Shown in pieces: positions 49,760 to 59,931 of a stretch of 64,000 nucleotides of DNA; the stretch's first letter is position 1; every line of letters begins with the position of its first letter. The stretch covers positions 186,001-250,000 of the forward strand of contig NZ_VDUY01000004.1 in NCBI RefSeq assembly GCF_008039575.1, written 5' to 3'. The notes beneath the pieces were generated by a model that was not told where the DNA came from, searched no databases, and saw only the letters and a list, made by a program, of their open reading frames with translations. A program made the translations under genes and the position numbers. This DNA is from Zeimonas arvi. Its GTDB lineage: Bacteria > Pseudomonadota > Gammaproteobacteria > Burkholderiales > Burkholderiaceae_E.

Positions 49760-51950
<2,191 letters not shown>

Positions 51951-51961
51951 CCTCGCCTCCG

Positions 51962-52891
51962 TCACGCCTTCGGCTTCACGCGGGCCAGGATGCGATCGGC
52001 CTCGGTGCGCCAGTCGGGGCTGCGCGCGAATTCCTTGCTGTCGCGCGCGCCGAACAGGCCCGCGTCGGCCAGGTCGGCCACCCAGGCCTGGCGCTCGGCG
52101 GTGCCGCCGGCCGACCAGGGCTCGAGCCCGATCTCGCGCACCGTCTGCGCCACTTCACGGACTTCCTCGCTGCGGCGGCGGCCGTGCTCGACGACCCGCT
52201 GGAAGAAATAGGCACCCTGCTTCTCCCAGTCGATGCCGGGGAAGGTCTCGTACAGCGAGGCGATCACCGCGTCTTCCACGCCGTAGGCGCGCGCGGCGGT
52301 GAAGCTCTCGATGACCATGGCCTCCAGGCCCTTGATCATCACGCTGCGGCACATCTTGGTGGCCGAGGCCACGCCCAGGCGCTCGCTGGCCACCTTGGCA
52401 TCGAAGCCGAGCAGCCTGACCAGCGGCTCGAGCACGGCGGCGCTGGCGCCGCCCAGCAGCAAGGGCACGCGGATCCGGTAGGGCGGGATCGAGGTCATCA
52501 CCGCGCCCTCGACGTAGCGCCCGCCGGCCGCGTCGATCAGCGCGGCCGCGCGCTGCTTGGCGCCGGGCGAGGCCGAGTTGAAATCGAGGAAGAAGGCGCC
52601 GGGCCGCACCGCCGGCGCGCAGGCCTGCGCCACCGGCACCGCCTGGCTGGCGGTGACGGCCGAGACGATGAGGCCGGCTTCACGGGCCAGCGCGGCGTGC
52701 GAGCCGGCCAGCGCGACGCCGTGCGCCGCGGCGTGCTCGCGCAGCGGCGCGGCCTGCTCGCCGGCGAGCTTCAGGTCGAAGGCCGACACGGCGACGCCCT
52801 TCGCGCGCAGGTCTTCGGCCAGGATGCGGCCGACCTCGCCGTAGCCGACGAGGCCGACGCGCCACTGCAGGGGATCGGAGGGGATGTTCAT
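51962..52891 (-). CDS. NAD(P)-binding dehydrogenase with DUF1932 C-terminal domain
   Basis: 309 residues. GLVGYGEVGRILAEDL is the dinucleotide-binding loop of the beta-hydroxyacid dehydrogenase superfamily; DFNSASPGAKQ and the C-terminal DUF1932-like helices (KMCRSVMIKGLEAMVIESF with the family Lys) follow. It would oxidise or reduce a hydroxy acid. It lies between ligK and ligI with 7-11 bp gaps, so it must be part of the pathway operon. Its reaction there is unknown; a possible role is handling a side product or reduced intermediate. Confidence 0.8.
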   Translation of the reverse strand: MNIPSDPLQWRVGLVGYGEVGRILAEDLRAKGVAVSAFDLKLAGEQAAPLREHAAAHGVALAGSHAALAREAGLIVSAVTASQAVPVAQACAPAVRPGAFFLDFNSASPGAKQRAAALIDAAGGRYVEGAVMTSIPPYRIRVPLLLGGASAAVLEPLVRLLGFDAKVASERLGVASATKMCRSVMIKGLEAMVIESFTAARAYGVEDAVIASLYETFPGIDWEKQGAYFFQRVVEHGRRRSEEVREVAQTVREIGLEPWSAGGTAERQAWVADLADAGLFGARDSKEFARSPDWRTEADRILARVKPKA

Positions 52892-52898
52892 CGGGGGA

Positions 52899-53597
52899 TC
52901 AGTCGATGTACCGGAGCCCGGCTTTCTCGAGCGCCTCGCGCATCTTGTACATGTCGAGGCCGAGCTCGCCGGCCGCCAGGCGGGCGCGCTTGTCGGCCTC
53001 GTTGGCCTCGCGCGCCTGGGCGGCGTCGGCCGCCTGCCGCGCCACCGCGGCCGGCACCACGACCACGCCGTCGTCGTCGGCCACCACCACGTCGCCCGGG
53101 TTCACGATCGCGCCGGCGCAGACCACCGGCACGTTGACCGAGCCCAGCGTGGCCTTGACGGTGCCCTTGGCGCTGATCGCCCGGCTCCAGACCGGGAAGC
53201 GCATCTCGGTCAGGTCCCTCACGTCGCGCACGCCGGCGTCGATGACCAGGCCCACCGCGCCGCGGGCGCGAAAGCTGGTGGCCAGCAGGTCGCCGAAGAA
53301 GCCGTCGGTGCAGTCGGCGGTCACCGCCGCGATCACGAAGTCGCCGGGGCGGATCTGCTCGGCCACGACGTGCATCATCCAGTTGTCGCCCGGATGCAGC
53401 AGCACGGTGACCGCGGTGCCGCAGGCATGGGCGCCGGCGTAGACCGGTCGCATGTGGGGCTTCATCAGCCCGACCCGGCCCATCGCCTCGTGGATGGTGG
53501 CCGAGCCGAAGCGCGACAGCTTGTCGACCGCCGCTCGGTCGGCGCGCGCGATGTTGCGCCTGACGATGCCCAGTTCGTTCATCGGGGGATTGCTCAT
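52899..53597 (-). CDS. ligK: 4-carboxy-4-hydroxy-2-oxoadipate/4-hydroxy-4-methyl-2-oxoglutarate aldolase
   Basis: 232 residues of the RraA-like class II aldolases. [25 protein letters not shown] has the conserved G-x-L-x(18-20)-R-D pattern for metal and pyruvate binding. It splits the C6 intermediate into pyruvate and oxaloacetate, the last step of the route. Start ATG at 53597 or 53582 (MNEL). Confidence 0.92.
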
Positions 53598-53652
53598 CGT
53601 GTAAGTCCGGTAGGTACGGTGAAGGCCGAGGGATGCGCGCGCGATTCCGCGA

Positions 53653-54681
53653 TCAGCGGCCGCGCGCCTTCAGCGCCCGGTCCATGCGCGGATACACGCG
53701 CCGCGCGTTGCCTTCGTAGATCTTGTAGCGGTCCTCGTCGGAGAGGATCGTCGAGGCCTCGAGGTAGCGCTTCGTGTCGTCGAAGTGGTGGCCGGTCTCG
53801 GGGTCGATCCCGCGCACCGCGCCGATCATCTCGCTGGCGAACAGCACGTTCTCGACCGGAATCACCTTGGTCAGCAGGTCGATGCCGGGCTGGTGGTACA
53901 CGCAGGTGTCGAACCAGATGTTGTTCAGCAAGTGCTCCTGCAGCAGCGGCTTCTTCAGCTCCTGGGCCAGGCCGCGGAAGCGCCCCCAGTGATAGGGCAC
54001 CGCGCCGCCGCCGTGCGGGATCACGAACTTCAGCGTGGGGAAGTCCTTGAACAGATCCGAGGTCAGGCACTGCATGAAGGCCGTGGTGTCGGCGTTCAGG
54101 TAGTGGGCGCCGGTGGTGTGGAAGCAGGCGTTGCAGCTGGTGCTCACGTGGATCATGGCCGGGATCTCGAGCTCGACCATCTTCTCGTAGATCGGGTACC
54201 AGTGCCGGTCGGGCAGCGGCGGCGCAGTCCAGTGGCCGCCCGAGGGGTCCGGGTTCAGGTTGATGGCCACGAAACCGTATTCCTTCACGCACTTCTCGAG
54301 CTCGGGAAGGCAGGTCTTCGGGTCGACGCCGGGCGACTGGGGCAGCATCGCCGCGCCGATGAAGTGGTCCGGGAACAGCTGGCTGACCCGGTGGCAGAGC
54401 TCGTTGCAGATCGCCGCCCAGGTGGCGCTGGTCTCGAAGTTCCCGATGTGGTGCGCCATGAAGCTCGCCCGCGGCGAGAACACGGTGAGATCGCTGCCGC
54501 GCTCCTTCATCTTGGCGAGCTGGTTCTTCTCGATCGACTCGCGGATGTCGTCGTCGCCGATCTTCAGCTCCGAGGCCTTCGGCGCCACGGACGGGTCCTT
54601 CAGCCCGGCGACCTGCCGGTTGCGCCAGTCCTCGAGCGCCTTGGGCGCGGTGGTGTAGTGGCCGTGGATGTCGATGATCAT
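53653..54681 (-). CDS. ligJ: 4-oxalomesaconate hydratase
   Basis: 342 residues. IDIHGHYT (His 6, His 8), [25 protein letters not shown] and [15 protein letters not shown] match LigJ, a member of the amidohydrolase superfamily needing a metal. It hydrates 4-oxalomesaconate to 4-carboxy-4-hydroxy-2-oxoadipate. The ATG overlaps the stop of the tautomerase gene (4 bp). Confidence 0.92.
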
Positions 54682-55796
54682 TCGTGCTTTCCTTCCCAGA
54701 CCGAGGCCGGGATCATGACTTCGCCGCGCATGATCAGGCGCGCGGTGCGCAGCAGCGCCGCCCGGGTCACGCTCTGCGGGTTGGCGGGGTCGAGCGCGAG
54801 CTCGACGCTGAACTCGCCGCTCGGGTGCTCCACCGAGACGGTCTTGACCAGGCCCTCGGGCAGCGCCGCCATGCCCTCGGTGACGGAACCGTCGAGCACG
54901 CAGGCGGTGCCCACGGTGACCGCGGCCAGCACGCCGATCGCGTCGTGGCACACGTGCGGGATGAAGCAGCGGGTGGCCACGCTGCCGCCGGCACGGGGCG
55001 GCGCGACCAGGCACATCTTCGGGTAGGTCTTCTTCGAGACGTCGCCCAGGCCCATCAGGTGGCCGGCCTTCAGCCGCAGGTCCTCGATGCGGGCCTTCAG
55101 CTCGGTGTCGGCATTGAGCTCCGCCACCGATTCGTAGCCGGTGCGGCCCAGGCCCGCGGCGCGGAACAGCACCATCGGCATGCCGTTGTCGATGCAGGTG
55201 ACCTCGATGCTTCCCAGGCCTTCCACCTCGACGGTGTCGCGCACGCGGCCGGTGGGCAGCAGGCCGGAGCAGACCGAGCCGGCGGTGTCGAGGAAGTTGA
55301 TCGTGATCGGCGCCGAGACGCCGGGCACGCCGTCGATGCGCGCGTCGCCGGCGTAGCTCACGCGGCGGCCGGCCGGCGTCATGGGCGTGAGCACCGTGAT
55401 GTCGCACTGCATGTCGGTGTTCAGCGTGAGCACCCGCAGCGTGGTCGTGTCGCCCTGCGGCGCGACCAGGCCGGTTTCCAGCGCGAAGGGCACCACCGCG
55501 GCCAGCATGTTGCCGCAGTTCGGCGTGGTGTCGACGGTGTCCTTGTCGGGCTGGAGCTGCGCGAACAGGAAGTCGAGATCGACGCCCGGGCTCTTGCTGC
55601 GCCGCACGATGCCCACCTTGCTGGTGAGCGGATGGGCGCCGCCCAAGCCGTCGATCTGGCGCTTGTCGGGCGAGCCCATCACGGCGAGCAGCACCCGGTC
55701 GCGGGTGGCGATGTCGACGGGCAGGTCGTCCTCGCGGAAGAAGGGGCCGCGCGAGGTGCCGCCACGCATGAACAGGCAGGGGATGGCAGTCTGCAT
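54678..55796 (-). CDS. 4-oxalomesaconate tautomerase (PrpF/GalD family)
   Basis: 372 residues. CLFMRGGTSRGPFF, LGGAHPLTSKVGIV, and TPNCGNMLAAVVPFALE are the PrpF-family motifs with the catalytic Lys and Cys. It belongs to the branch of GalD/LigU/PmdU that tautomerises oxalomesaconate keto/enol or shifts the double bond before hydration. Its position directly before ligJ fits. It is 31 bp downstream of the M81 gene. Confidence 0.9.
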   Translation of the reverse strand: MQTAIPCLFMRGGTSRGPFFREDDLPVDIATRDRVLLAVMGSPDKRQIDGLGGAHPLTSKVGIVRRSKSPGVDLDFLFAQLQPDKDTVDTTPNCGNMLAAVVPFALETGLVAPQGDTTTLRVLTLNTDMQCDITVLTPMTPAGRRVSYAGDARIDGVPGVSAPITINFLDTAGSVCSGLLPTGRVRDTVEVEGLGSIEVTCIDNGMPMVLFRAAGLGRTGYESVAELNADTELKARIEDLRLKAGHLMGLGDVSKKTYPKMCLVAPPRAGGSVATRCFIPHVCHDAIGVLAAVTVGTACVLDGSVTEGMAALPEGLVKTVSVEHPSGEFSVELALDPANPQSVTRAALLRTARLIMRGEVMIPASVWEGKHE

Positions 55797-55827
55797 CCCG
55801 CCATTCTGGCACGCTGCCCCGCCGGAA

Positions 55828-57327
55828 TCAGCAGGGCTGCGCGTCCTTCTCGAACGGGTACAGCGGCGTCGGCCGGCGCTTGTAGTCGAACAGCGCGATG
55901 TCGGAGGCGGTCACGCCCAGGCCCTGGCATTCGACGATCTGCCTGGCGATCGGCTCGAAGCCGGCGCGGAAGTGCTGGCGCGACTTGATCAGCACGTAGC
56001 GCTTGCGGCGCGGGTCGATGCCGCAGTGGGTGAACACGCCCAGGTCGAAGGGCTCGCTGCGGCCTTCGGACACCACCACCTGCACCCGGCCGGTGTCGAG
56101 CACCGCGGTGCGGCCCATGCGGATCCGGGCGCCGGTGGCCATCGGCCCGGTGACCGTGAACTCGCCGTCGGTGATCGCACGCACCTTGCCGTCCAGTCGC
56201 ATCGGCTTGCCCTTCAGGTTCAGCGCCGGCATGTCCACGCGGCCGCCGACCTCGATGCTCACGTTCGCGCCGATGCCGGCCTCGATCATCCGGGCGACCG
56301 CCTGCGGGTCGCAGAAGGGGCCGGCAACCACGTCGTCGAGCTGCTGCTTCACGACCTCCTCGAGCACGCTCATGACGTCCTGGGTGCCGCCCGAGGCGGT
56401 GTTGTCACCGTGGTCCACCAGGATGACCGGCCCTTCGGTCATCTGGCGGGCGCGCGCGATCGAGTCGGCGAGCGGCTCGCCGCGGTACATGAAGTCCTCG
56501 CGGCGGTCCCAGGCCTGGTCGAGCAGGGAGTCGCGCAAGGCGATGCCCTGCTTCTCGCCCTCGGCCTTCGCCAGATCGACGACGACGACGGCCGACAGTC
56601 CCAGGTGCGGGATGTCGGCCTGCGGGAATCCGCCGAAGACCGAGGCGTTGAGCACCGCGCCCGCCGCCTCGGCCGCGATCGCGCGATCCATGATGTCCTT
56701 CATCGGGTTGCGCGAGGGCGTGTGCGACAGCGTGCTGCTCAGGATGGGTCGGCGTCCCCACAGGGTGCGCGGCCTGACCTCGCCGGCCAGCGCGCGCAGC
56801 AGCGTGCGGCCCGCGCGCTCGCCGGTCAGCCGCATGTCGACGTGCGGATAGGTGCGATAGCCGGTGATGACCGTGGCGTTGTCGACCATCTGCTGGGTCA
56901 TCTGCGCGTGGAAGTCGAGGGCCACCGCGATCGGCAGGCCCGGGGCCAGCGCCCGGACGCGCGCGAGCAACTCGCCCTCGCCGTCGTCGAGGTGCTCGCA
57001 GACCATCGCGCCGTGCAGGTCGAGCATCACCGCGTCGCAACCCCTGCGCACCGCATCGAGGATGGCGCCCGCCATCTCCTCGTAGGCCTCGCGGGTGACC
57101 AGCCCGGACGGATTGGCGTTGGCGGCGAGCGGCACCACGAACTCGGCGCCGGCCTCGCGGGCCAGGCCGATGAAGCCGCCGATCCCGTAGTTGGTGTCGG
57201 CGAGCTCGGCGATCGCCTGCTCGCCGCGCAGCGGCCCGCCGGGCCCGAAGGCGCCGATCGGCGTGGGCAGCGGCGAGAAGGTGTTGGTCTCGTGCAGCAT
57301 CGAGGCGATGACGAACTTGCGGGCCAT
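55828..57327 (-). CDS. M81-family (MlrC-like) metallopeptidase
   Basis: 499 residues. SMLHETNTFSP, DLHGAMVCEH, DFHAQMTQQMVDNA and YRTYPHVDM are the conserved N-terminal (DUF1485) zinc-site motifs, and the C-terminal domain (GPVILVDHGDNTASGG) is complete. MlrC cleaves linear microcystin, but most relatives have no known substrate. It is the first gene of the protocatechuate operon, spaced 31 bp from the tautomerase. Why an amidase or peptidase belongs there is unclear; it might release an aromatic acid from an amide. GGAG precedes the ATG. Confidence 0.87.
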   Translation of the reverse strand: MARKFVIASMLHETNTFSPLPTPIGAFGPGGPLRGEQAIAELADTNYGIGGFIGLAREAGAEFVVPLAANANPSGLVTREAYEEMAGAILDAVRRGCDAVMLDLHGAMVCEHLDDGEGELLARVRALAPGLPIAVALDFHAQMTQQMVDNATVITGYRTYPHVDMRLTGERAGRTLLRALAGEVRPRTLWGRRPILSSTLSHTPSRNPMKDIMDRAIAAEAAGAVLNASVFGGFPQADIPHLGLSAVVVVDLAKAEGEKQGIALRDSLLDQAWDRREDFMYRGEPLADSIARARQMTEGPVILVDHGDNTASGGTQDVMSVLEEVVKQQLDDVVAGPFCDPQAVARMIEAGIGANVSIEVGGRVDMPALNLKGKPMRLDGKVRAITDGEFTVTGPMATGARIRMGRTAVLDTGRVQVVVSEGRSEPFDLGVFTHCGIDPRRKRYVLIKSRQHFRAGFEPIARQIVECQGLGVTASDIALFDYKRRPTPLYPFEKDAQPC

Positions 57328-57350
57328 GCAGGGTCTCCGTGGATCGTGGG

Positions 57351-57608
57351 TCAGGAAGGGGGCGTGAGGCCGGCCGACACGGCGGCCAGGCAGGTCGGGC
57401 ACAGGCAGGATGCGGGTGGCGCGCCCGGCGGCAGGCCGAGCGCCGCGCGGGTCTCGGCGGGCAGCGCAGCGAGCCTCGCCGGGTCGATAGGGGGCAGTCC
57501 GGTGCACCAGCAAGCATCGGTGCCGGCGCCGCAGCCGAAGCTCGCGCCGCAGCGGAAGCAGCGGGTCGCTGCGGCGGAGGACTCGGGCGGGGGCGCGTCA
57601 GGCTGCAT
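57351..57608 (-). CDS. cysteine-rich CWC family protein
   Basis: 85 residues with nine Cys: TRCFRCGASFGCGAGTDACWCTGLPP and ASCLCPTCLA. The CxxCGxxFxC...CWC layout is that of the Cys-rich CWC family, small putative zinc-binding proteins of unknown role. The start could also be GTG at 57650, but that would run into the argB promoter. It lies 23 bp upstream of the M81 gene on the same strand. Confidence 0.8.
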   Translation of the reverse strand: MQPDAPPPESSAAATRCFRCGASFGCGAGTDACWCTGLPPIDPARLAALPAETRAALGLPPGAPPASCLCPTCLAAVSAGLTPPS

Positions 57609-57632: not shown

Positions 57633-58628
<996 letters not shown>

Positions 58629-58666
58629 TCCGTCCAACCCTTTGGAGTCATGCGGCCGTCGGCATG

Positions 58667-58952
58667 ACGCGTTGCGGCTTCCGGCAGACAGCGCCGGTCG
58701 GGCTGTCGGTGCGGGGCGAGGGCCGGGGGCCCGCGTGCCGGCACCCGGTGCTGCGGCCCCGCCTGCGGCGGGGCTGCCCTCGCCCACCTCGGAATTTCGC
58801 ACCCGCCTCATACGCGCTGCGCGCGGATGAGCGGGTCCCGCGAAATTCCTTTCGGTGGCGCTCGGCTTGCACAGGGCGCCGGCACGCGGGCCCCCGGCCC
58901 TCGCCCTTCGTGAGCTTGCGGCGGGCGCTGTCTGCCAGAAACCGCAAAGCGT
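58667..58952. repeat. Large nested inverted repeat, module 1
   Basis: Three pairs of arms are nested around one centre. Outer: 58667-58695 with 58924-58952 (29 bases, a few mismatches). Middle: 58714-58742 with 58878-58906, 29 bases without a mismatch. Inner: 58791-58800 with 58840-58849 (GGAATTTCGC/GCGAAATTCC) continuing with ACCCGC/GCGGGT. A small side hairpin CCCCGCC-TGC-GGCGGGG (58757-58773) lies in the left half. No coding potential is convincing. As RNA this would be a hairpin of nearly 290 bases. Confidence 0.9.
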
Positions 58953-58976
58953 GGCGGCACGCCGCGCCTCTCCGAA

Positions 58977-59184
58977 GGGCGGGCCCGGCTCTCCGCTTCG
59001 CGCCGCACTGTGCCAGCCGAGTGCTTCCGAAGGGAGCGCGGGAAAAGGCGCGCAGCATGTCTGAGGATCGCCGCAGGCGATCCGAGTTCTGCGCGCCCCC
59101 GCGCGTACGAGGAAGACGAGGGAAGCCCCCGCGCAGCGGGGGCCGCAGCACCGTGCGGCGCGAAGCGGAGAGCCGGGCCCGCCC
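58977..59184. repeat. Large inverted repeat, module 2, enclosing several perfect hairpins
   Basis: The arms 58977-59008 and 59153-59184 are perfect complements over 32 bases. Enclosed are GCTTCC-GAA-GGGAGC (59023-59037, one wobble), GGCGCGCAG/CTGCGCGCC (59047-59055 with 59089-59097) around GGATCGCC-GCA-GGCGATCC (59065-59083), and GCCCCCGC-GCA-GCGGGGGC (59125-59143). Two hairpins share the GCA loop and one of module 1 has TGC. With module 1 it fills the gap between argB and the nucleotidase gene. Confidence 0.9.
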
Positions 59185-59219
59185 CGCGCCGCGGCACCGA
59201 CCGGCGCGGGCCGCCGCAA

Positions 59220-59232
59220 GGCGCGAGGCGCC
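59220..59232 (+). promoter_or_regulatory. Hairpin directly before the nucleotidase GTG start
   Basis: GGCGC-GAG-GCGCC ends at the base before the start codon. It covers the place where a Shine-Dalgarno sequence would be, so it may reduce translation of this gene. Confidence 0.4.
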
Positions 59233-59931
59233 GTGAGCACCGTCTGGCTCCTCGACCTGGACAACACGCTGCACGACGCCATGCCGGTCGTGTTCCCGCG
59301 CATCAATCTGGCGATGACCGAATACGTGGCGCGGACCGTCGGGTTGCCTCACGAGGAGGCCAGCGAGCTGCGCGTGCATTACTGGCGCAAGTACGGCGCC
59401 ACGCTGCTGGGAATGGTCCGGCACCACGGCGTGGACCCGCGCGACTTCCTGCGCGAGACGCATCCGTTTCCGGACATCCACCGGATCGTGCGGCGCGACC
59501 ATCGTCTGGTGCAGGCGGTCCGGCGCCTGAAGGGGCGGCGCGTGATCGTGACCAATGCGCCGATGCACTACGCGGCGCGGGTGGTCGACGCGCTGGGCAT
59601 CGGGCGGCTGGTCGACGGCCTGGTGACGATCGAATCGATGAAGTTCGCGGGACGCATCCAGCCCAAGCCTTCGAAGGCGATGCTGCGCCGGCTGGCGGCG
59701 CGGCTCCGGGTGCCGCCGCACCGCTGCGTGCTGGTCGAGGACTCGGTCGAGAACCTGGACAGTGCCCGCGCGGTGGGGATGCGCACGGTGCTGGTCACCG
59801 GCATCGGGCACGGGCACCGGCATCCGGCGGAGCGGCCGCGCGCGGGGCTCGGTCGGCGGATGGACGTTCAAGTACAATCGTTCGAGCACCTTCCGCGCAA
59901 GGCTGTCCGGACGCCGCACCGAGCCCGATGA
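59233..59931 (+). CDS. HAD-family pyrimidine 5'-nucleotidase
   Basis: 232 residues starting at GTG. LLDLDNTLHDA carries the DxDxT nucleophile pair (Asp 8, Asp 10), VTNAPMHYA is motif II, KPSKAML has the motif III Lys and VLVEDSVENLDSARAVGM motif IV. It is the SDT1/PHM8-like branch found between argB and slmA in Burkholderiales. It would dephosphorylate UMP or CMP. Its stop overlaps the slmA start (ATGA). Confidence 0.87.
   Translation: MSTVWLLDLDNTLHDAMPVVFPRINLAMTEYVARTVGLPHEEASELRVHYWRKYGATLLGMVRHHGVDPRDFLRETHPFPDIHRIVRRDHRLVQAVRRLKGRRVIVTNAPMHYAARVVDALGIGRLVDGLVTIESMKFAGRIQPKPSKAMLRRLAARLRVPPHRCVLVEDSVENLDSARAVGMRTVLVTGIGHGHRHPAERPRAGLGRRMDVQVQSFEHLPRKAVRTPHRAR

Follow-up and report, generated by a model that had tools for sequence, protein, structure and literature searches.

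The stems of mitochondrial double-hairpin elements change fast. Among the described bacterial repeats, REPs lie downstream of genes and often form inverted pairs, according to the available text of PMC3733652, and perfect inverted repeats are enriched shortly past bacterial stop codons, as outlined in the accessible part of PMC13155455. Template-switch (quasipalindrome) mutation is characterised, in the available portions of PMC8794818 and PMC8604942, by two-sided changes, homogenisation of the arms, inversion of the spacer and a G-C/U-A bias of the 5' side. The accessible sections of PMC8794818 call the joint change of both sides of a hairpin stem a puzzle, and predict that, where correction is templated by the 5' base, 5'-G/3'-C and 5'-U/3'-A pairs should be in excess.

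Here we analyse two hairpin elements located behind argB of Zeimonas arvi, in a window comprising the whole 64 kb stretch of DNA under study, and the family to which they belong. The family is a form of dispersed extragenic hairpin repeat in which the core is conserved, the mirrored arms are specific to each copy and the usual place is behind genes; nothing describing this hairpin family was found in the open-licence literature searched. The reading that we consider probable is that of a genus-restricted hairpin element, non-autonomous and located at gene ends, in which template switching is largely responsible for keeping the arms complementary.

Two elements behind argB

The repeat search recovered the inverted repeats that a preliminary description had located at 58667-59184, with matching lengths: the inner pair of element A (58714-58751/58869-58906, 38 nt, 95%, including 29 perfect bases) and the pair of the second module (58977-59013/59148-59184, 37 nt, 97%, including 32 perfect bases). 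TGC/GCA triloops are visible in the sequence of 58667-59184. When arms had to be 20 nt or longer and 90% identical or better, with a gap not above 600, these two inner pairs were the only ones in the 64 kb, and 40 dinucleotide-preserving shuffles of the whole window gave zero qualifying pairs (longest arm, 18), in line with the original view that such arms are beyond chance. The 520 bp had been taken for one composite element; they are two separate elements in opposite orientations, each with its own core type (Table 1). Element A starts 38 nt past the argB stop (58628) and element B ends 48 nt upstream of the start of the HAD hydrolase (59233); no gene end adjoins element B in the element's orientation. 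Elsewhere in the window, at 51018-57513, minus-strand genes encode amidohydrolase, RraA-like aldolase, PrpF and M81/MlrC domains, a gene set which we take to resemble an aromatic meta-cleavage pathway.

Table 1 Features of the locus behind argB (window coordinates) and G005 sites that are element-free in congeners.
Feature	Position	Strand	Remarks
argB	57723..58628	+	amino acid kinase family (Pfam); name argB from the preliminary description
Outer left arm, element A	58667..58695		pairs with 58924-58952; 29 nt, 90% (just under 90%)
Inner left arm, element A	58714..58746		33 nt
Core, element A, type A	58748..58872	+	conserved; same orientation as argB; copies dispersed in genome
Inner right arm, element A	58874..58906		pairs with inner left arm
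Outer right arm, element A	58924..58952		pairs with outer left arm
Left-hand arm, element B	58977..59008		pairs with 59153-59184
Core, element B, type B	59010..59151	-	conserved; orientation opposite to A
Right-hand arm, element B	59153..59184		pairs with 58977-59008
HAD-family hydrolase ('nucleotidase')	59233..59931	+	domain search; after argB without family core in six congeners
L053			element-free in G013
L192			element-free in G013, G008 (and G006)
L199			element-free in G013
L202			element-free in G008, G014
L204			element-free in G013, G014, G015
L206			element-free in G014; G013 and G008 carry the element

A family of dispersed copies restricted to the genus

The search of 58640-59240 against the own genome (G000; 3.83 Mb, 16 contigs) with blastn returned 35 match rows, self and reverse matches included. 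The cores belong to three types, A (125 nt), B (140 nt) and C (145 nt), represented by the covariance models R1, R2 and R3, respectively. At least 38 near-full cores are dispersed in the own genome: 12 of type A (R1, E<1e-10; one of them, at C7:59779, without arms in the repeat search), 14 of type B (R2, E<1e-15) and 12 of type C. Together with the covariance-model matches in congeners, this bears out the early suggestion of a dispersed, multicopy family of the lineage. R1 matched 13 of 61 genomes, namely the own genome and 12 of 17 congeners, and none of the 43 others; R2 matched 7 of the 17 congeners (E<=1e-10, cross-hits to type A cores included) and R3 matched 8. In the order-wide sample, searched with the stricter filters used above 40 genomes, R3 matched 3 of 399 genomes, all three in the genus. 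Neither model gave a hit outside the genus (R1, 61 genomes; R3, 399 genomes).

No match to the family was found in the plasmid and phage sequences searched, and an origin from either was rejected on this ground. The viral contigs scanned with two patterns gave none; the pattern scan of genome contigs gave four stretches, two in Lautropia sp. SCN 70-15, one in a 'Limnobacter' MAG contig and one in Microbacterium, the last taken as chance. The 4227 Rfam models gave no match at E<=1 for 58400-59500 nor for the loci L116, L202, L053 and L106, so that identity with an Rfam family, which would mean an element already described, was discarded.

At 9 of the 13 sites inspected in the fragmented assembly G007 (L156-L158, L160, L161, L163-L165, L120), a contig breaks off inside the element site or no more than about 270 nt away from it. 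Copy numbers in fragmented genomes are therefore probably underestimates, and the elements may explain these contig ends. At L165 (G007:C174:5400-5874) the contig end holds two inverted copies of the same gene end, which could reflect a long extension of the arm or a fold-back in the assembly. The own genome also contains an inverted repeat with 35-bp arms (97%) and a gap of only 58 nt, located 23 nt past a gene end (L103, G000:C1:847301-847428), which perhaps has a shortened or different core.

Arms are copy-specific and self-complementary

The unit of the family is a conserved, covarying core of 122-146 nt on a stem of mostly 28-180 bp. Arms were catalogued from 112 candidates at fetched loci, a subset of the covariance-model hits, the cores being found by their end motifs. 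Leaving out four candidates whose cores measured 156-160 nt, all second readings at L054 and L055, gave 108; these became 107 in the pairing count, after removal of a repeated arm, and 107 in the end-motif count, where L072 has no flank. In the 107 arms, 5313 of 5464 pairs (97%) are Watson-Crick. Arm length is mostly 28-42 bp in G000 and its near relatives, and 50-179 bp in G005 and several other congeners. In the short-arm group the arms of types A and B most often extend 33-34 nt from the core (35 of 58), and at the foot 28 of 80 have GCGCC on the left-hand side and 41 of 80 have TSGA on the right-hand side. Some copies are enclosed by an additional, outer inverted repeat.

That arm and core evolve differently is seen in six copies of G005. 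Five cores (L199, L202, L204, L206, L208) are identical over 136 nt and the sixth (L210) differs by one base; the arms of the same six copies, 113-162 bp long, are 97-99% paired. In the 5' arm, 13 of the 15 copy pairs have no 12-mer in common and one has a single one; L199 and L210, which are related, share 14.

Orthologous sites agree with this picture. Of 67 site pairs examined, 21 were compared; in the other 46 one or both elements were missing or undetected, which reflects real absence, broken contigs or detector failure (L095a in G003; L099a and L116 in G000). Core identity exceeds arm identity in 19 of the 21 pairs, the exceptions being L097b and argB, indicating that the core changes more slowly than the arms and adding to the case that the complementarity of the arms is not a matter of chance. 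In the long-arm clade (L202-, L185 twice, L206-) cores are 99-100% identical and arms 58-71%; in L185 of G005 and G014, for example, the core is 100% and the arms are 59% identical. Between G000 and G003 cores are 73-97% and arms 44-91% identical, core identity being lowered in part by a difference of subtype at one site. For reference, the flanking genes of G005 and G013 differ by about 12% in the fastest codon phase (82 of 684, seven pieces), a value biased upward by the choice of that phase.

Changes within the arms were counted as two-sided or one-sided. Fifteen pairs with arm identity of at least 0.60 gave 107 two-sided versus 29 one-sided changes, a total that leans on low-identity alignments, in which any mismatch between two self-complementary arms counts as two-sided. 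Fairer figures come from the four closest arm pairs (at least 79% identity, one of them paralogues), with 14 two-sided and 7 one-sided changes, and from L202- in G005 and G013 (core 99%, arms 71%), where the alignment is nearly ungapped and 26 changes affect both sides and one a single side. In element A itself, three inner-arm positions differ from the G003 orthologue and all three changed on both sides, in addition to one unpaired column. The arms stay complementary while diverging, and the one-sided share in the closest pairs (7 of 21) indicates that arm correction is not instantaneous.

Insertion sites and place behind genes

Thirteen of the 17 congeners gave a match covering most of argB. 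In six of those with a readable downstream side (G002, G006, G010, G011, G013 and G015), argB and the nucleotidase are close neighbours and no family core lies behind argB, as anticipated when the locus was first described as an insertion. Element A is carried by G003. The A core found in G005 points the other way and stands on a stem of about 158 bp. G001 has a different gene after argB, the G007 contig stops within the element, and in G004, G008 and G012 contigs end and the downstream side is out of reach. Behind argB, G002 (L123) carries a short inverted copy of the nucleotidase start (27-nt arms, gap 39) and G006 (L125) a shorter one, both lacking a family core; these may represent palindrome growth into a gene start without an element.

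Element-free sites are found in congeners for six sites of G005, each with the flanks kept in at least one congener (Table 1), which supports the original view of an inserted element. Presence and absence are unpolarised; at L204 the simplest reading is a gain in G005. At the L053 site G013 reads ..GGTTCC and then AAACGAGG.., and G005 has arm, core and arm between the two; its right arm closes with GGAACC. Element-free sites lack the bulk of the arm sequence. Copying of the 5' flank at insertion was rejected as the source of the arm bulk, since only GGTTCC is present in G013 at L053, and since the L199 and L204- arms are homologous end to end; only the outermost 6-30 nt of an arm look like copied target. 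The element-free orthologue of G000-L117a in G003 (L145:220-345, G003:C1:48870-48995) holds a 31-nt unit, with GCGCCC at its end, in about 2.5 tandem copies, and TGGAGGTCGTG comes directly after them. Both GCGCCC and TGGAGGTCGTG are motifs that flank elements elsewhere, and the tandem unit may be a deletion scar.

The elements have a preferred orientation relative to genes. Among 79 with enough flank, a gene end lies within 130 nt on the 5' side only in 47, on the 3' side only in 5, on both sides in 14 and on neither in 13. A coding gene thus ends on the 5' side in 61 of 79, a low count, since the test misses some visible ends (L204, L185); the remaining 18, the window's element B included, are without a detected one. 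Convergent neighbours often carry one element each, and inverted pairs occur. The two convergent elements at L204 of G005 are separated by a spacer of about 72 nt, which is an imperfect hairpin in its own right (TGCGCCACGGGA..TCCCGTGGCGCA).

The position just behind stop codons would also suit an intrinsic terminator of the ordinary bidirectional kind whose apical loop is unusually large. None of the 107 elements has a U-tract (6 T in 12, or TTTT) within 12 nt of either end, on either strand, which speaks against this candidate; promoter- and terminator-like sites looked for in 58500-59400 gave none, and the long conserved core is not accounted for. A terminator is thus very improbable.

Under a second candidate explanation the arms would be terminal inverted repeats of the usual sort, belonging to a REP/REPIN- or MITE-like element that an unrecognised transposase moves in trans. 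Position downstream of genes and frequent inverted pairs are what the available text of PMC3733652 describes for REPs, and congeners do differ in presence and absence; the copy-specific arms run counter to this candidate, which we judge unlikely. Membership of the classical MITEs or BIMEs, suggested in the preliminary description, is not supported: the arms include no family-wide terminal inverted repeat, and no flush direct repeat of at least 4 nt, as a target-site duplication would leave, was found at the ends of the 107 elements, a test limited by the divergence of the element-free sites. The GTAG tag was present at the hairpin foot in 1 of 107 (CGTC in 24 of 107, a count made without a shuffle control in GC-rich DNA). 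RAYT (Y1_Tnp) did not exceed the cut-off in any of the 11 genus genomes, the own genome included (one match below cut-off, in G011; E. coli control positive), and exceeded it in 3 of 9 other family members. A RAYT/REP origin was rejected on these grounds, and the Y1_Tnp search of the 11 genus genomes revealed no mobilising enzyme.

Core fold, covariation and strand

In the predicted fold the core is closed by a stem and carries two hairpins, one at the side and the other long and branched, with triloops. Covariation is present in all three types, with changes on both sides in 15 of 46 pairs in type A (10 sequences), 18 of 45 in type B (6) and 14 of 45 in type C (14). Covarying helices are what a structured RNA should have, and a 3'-end or antisense RNA under selection, with compensating changes and no special mutation process, would likewise explain the purine-rich loops and wobble bias of one strand, the cores 99-100% identical between species of the long-arm clade, and the near-fixed length of the short arms (33-34 nt from the core in 35 of 58). 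Against this explanation stand the arms of 113-185 nt, which are 96-99% paired at lengths where a single mismatch should cost little stability, the gene ends included in arms, and the base bias of the 5' arm described below (G>C, T>A), which selection on pairing alone does not predict. We regard a structured RNA under selection as the less likely explanation.

Fold and wobble counts of the core were made on unique cores only. The gene-sense strand folds better than the antisense strand in just 1 of 101, and an RNA made together with argB, previously offered as one possibility, is accordingly not supported as the natural reading, despite a type B consensus fold that favours sense by 1.1 kcal/mol; the consensus folds of types A and C favour antisense. 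Folding of the arms favours antisense in 47 and sense in 20 of 107. Wobble cells of the core, which are not independent, favour antisense 53:21, mainly in type A (A 34:11; B 14:6; C 5:4), and the core loops are purine-rich on the antisense strand. The sense-orientation core folds contain conserved G-U pairs. In the arms, A.C exceeds G.T by 37:13 among copies that are not independent; we read this as antisense wobble, and strand-biased mutation or repair could give the same excess. Strand evidence is thus mixed between sense and antisense, and single-stranded DNA and RNA are indistinguishable here; the structured strand is probably the one antisense to the gene.

Signs of probable template switching

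In the 97 arms sharing no 14-mer, the 5' arm has more G than C in 84 and more C than G in 11, with two ties (p 4.5e-15), and more T than A in 55 versus 21 (p 1.2e-4), a further departure from chance. The G>C bias is found in short (72:7) and long arms (22:5), related arms included, and is strand-independent, a palindrome having the same 5' arm on both strands. Both biases run in the direction predicted in the available text of PMC8794818, which supports intrastrand template switching. In G005-L192 and G005-L208 the arm takes in the last part of the upstream gene, stop codon included, and the opposite arm repeats it in mirror image; the outer repeat of G000-L114 includes the gene's last codons; and one half of the G001 core L168 resembles the mirror image of the other half. 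The long arms appear to exceed the length that pairing should require, yet they are nearly perfect.

The hallmarks of template switching found in the family are two-sided changes, extension of arms into the flank, inversion of a half and the bias of the 5' base, the one-sided share being roughly measured. Template switching as the main cause of arm complementarity is well supported, not proven, and selection for pairing stays a rival, above all for short stems. Of the causes initially listed (gene conversion, recent insertion or selection on RNA), the data point to a combination of arm-to-arm templated correction and constraint on the core.

Under the template-switching reading, a family with a conserved branched core (A, B or C) on a long stem would insert just behind stop codons; its arms would drift and then be re-matched by intrastrand template switching during replication, the 5' arm templating the 3' arm; and switching would sometimes run past the element, copying the gene end into the far arm. 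The structured strand, probably antisense to the gene, might serve as a boundary against converging or antisense transcription entering the 3' end of the gene, a role that is less certain. In a further-reaching version, put forward only tentatively, the inherited unit would be a conserved core together with a stem whose sequence is free and which the replication fork keeps rewriting: a mutation in one arm would be copied by the fork into the other, flanking gene ends would be captured as well, and the host would use the always-perfect hairpin as an antisense boundary. If true, this would be a class of mobile elements recognised by their shape, whose stems owe their upkeep to mutation bias rather than to selection on their sequence.

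The family allows a test, in nature, of how the two halves of a bacterial hairpin are kept matched: it provides 97 arms with no 14-mer in common, orthologues at the level of species, cores that are identical and control sites free of the element, so that the rate, direction and extent of correction are measurable. It also adds a genus-specific landmark at gene ends.

Comparison with known systems

REP, REPIN and BIME elements, in the accessible texts of PMC3733652 and PMC3116915, are likewise extragenic palindromes in dispersed copies, which for the most part lie downstream of genes and frequently form inverted pairs, features also found here (61 of 79 behind a gene end). According to the same texts, REPs are repeats of 20-40 bp and GTAG families are associated with RAYT, whereas here the copy-specific arms are mostly 28-180 bp, unrelated between copies, and the common part is not a short palindrome but a core of 122-146 nt. 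The inverted repeats past stop codons, as far as described in the available part of PMC13155455, have conserved arms and varying spacers; in the present family the core is conserved, the arms vary and the spacers are far longer. SbcD did not reach the cut-off in any of the 23 genomes tried, whether of this genus or of others, so that loss of SbcCD was discarded as a special cause, being non-discriminating. Rfam families share a covarying core with these elements, but no model matches. The mitochondrial double-hairpin or repetitive hairpin elements, as presented in the available text of PMC2800124, are also repetitive, hairpin-forming and intergenic; those described here are located on a bacterial chromosome, consist of a single long stem with a branched core and have a fixed place behind stop codons. 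Finally, the template-switch cases in the accessible portions of PMC8794818 and PMC8604942 are single events in RNA genes or yeast coding genes, whereas here a whole repeat family, with arms of tens to about 180 bp, is apparently affected.
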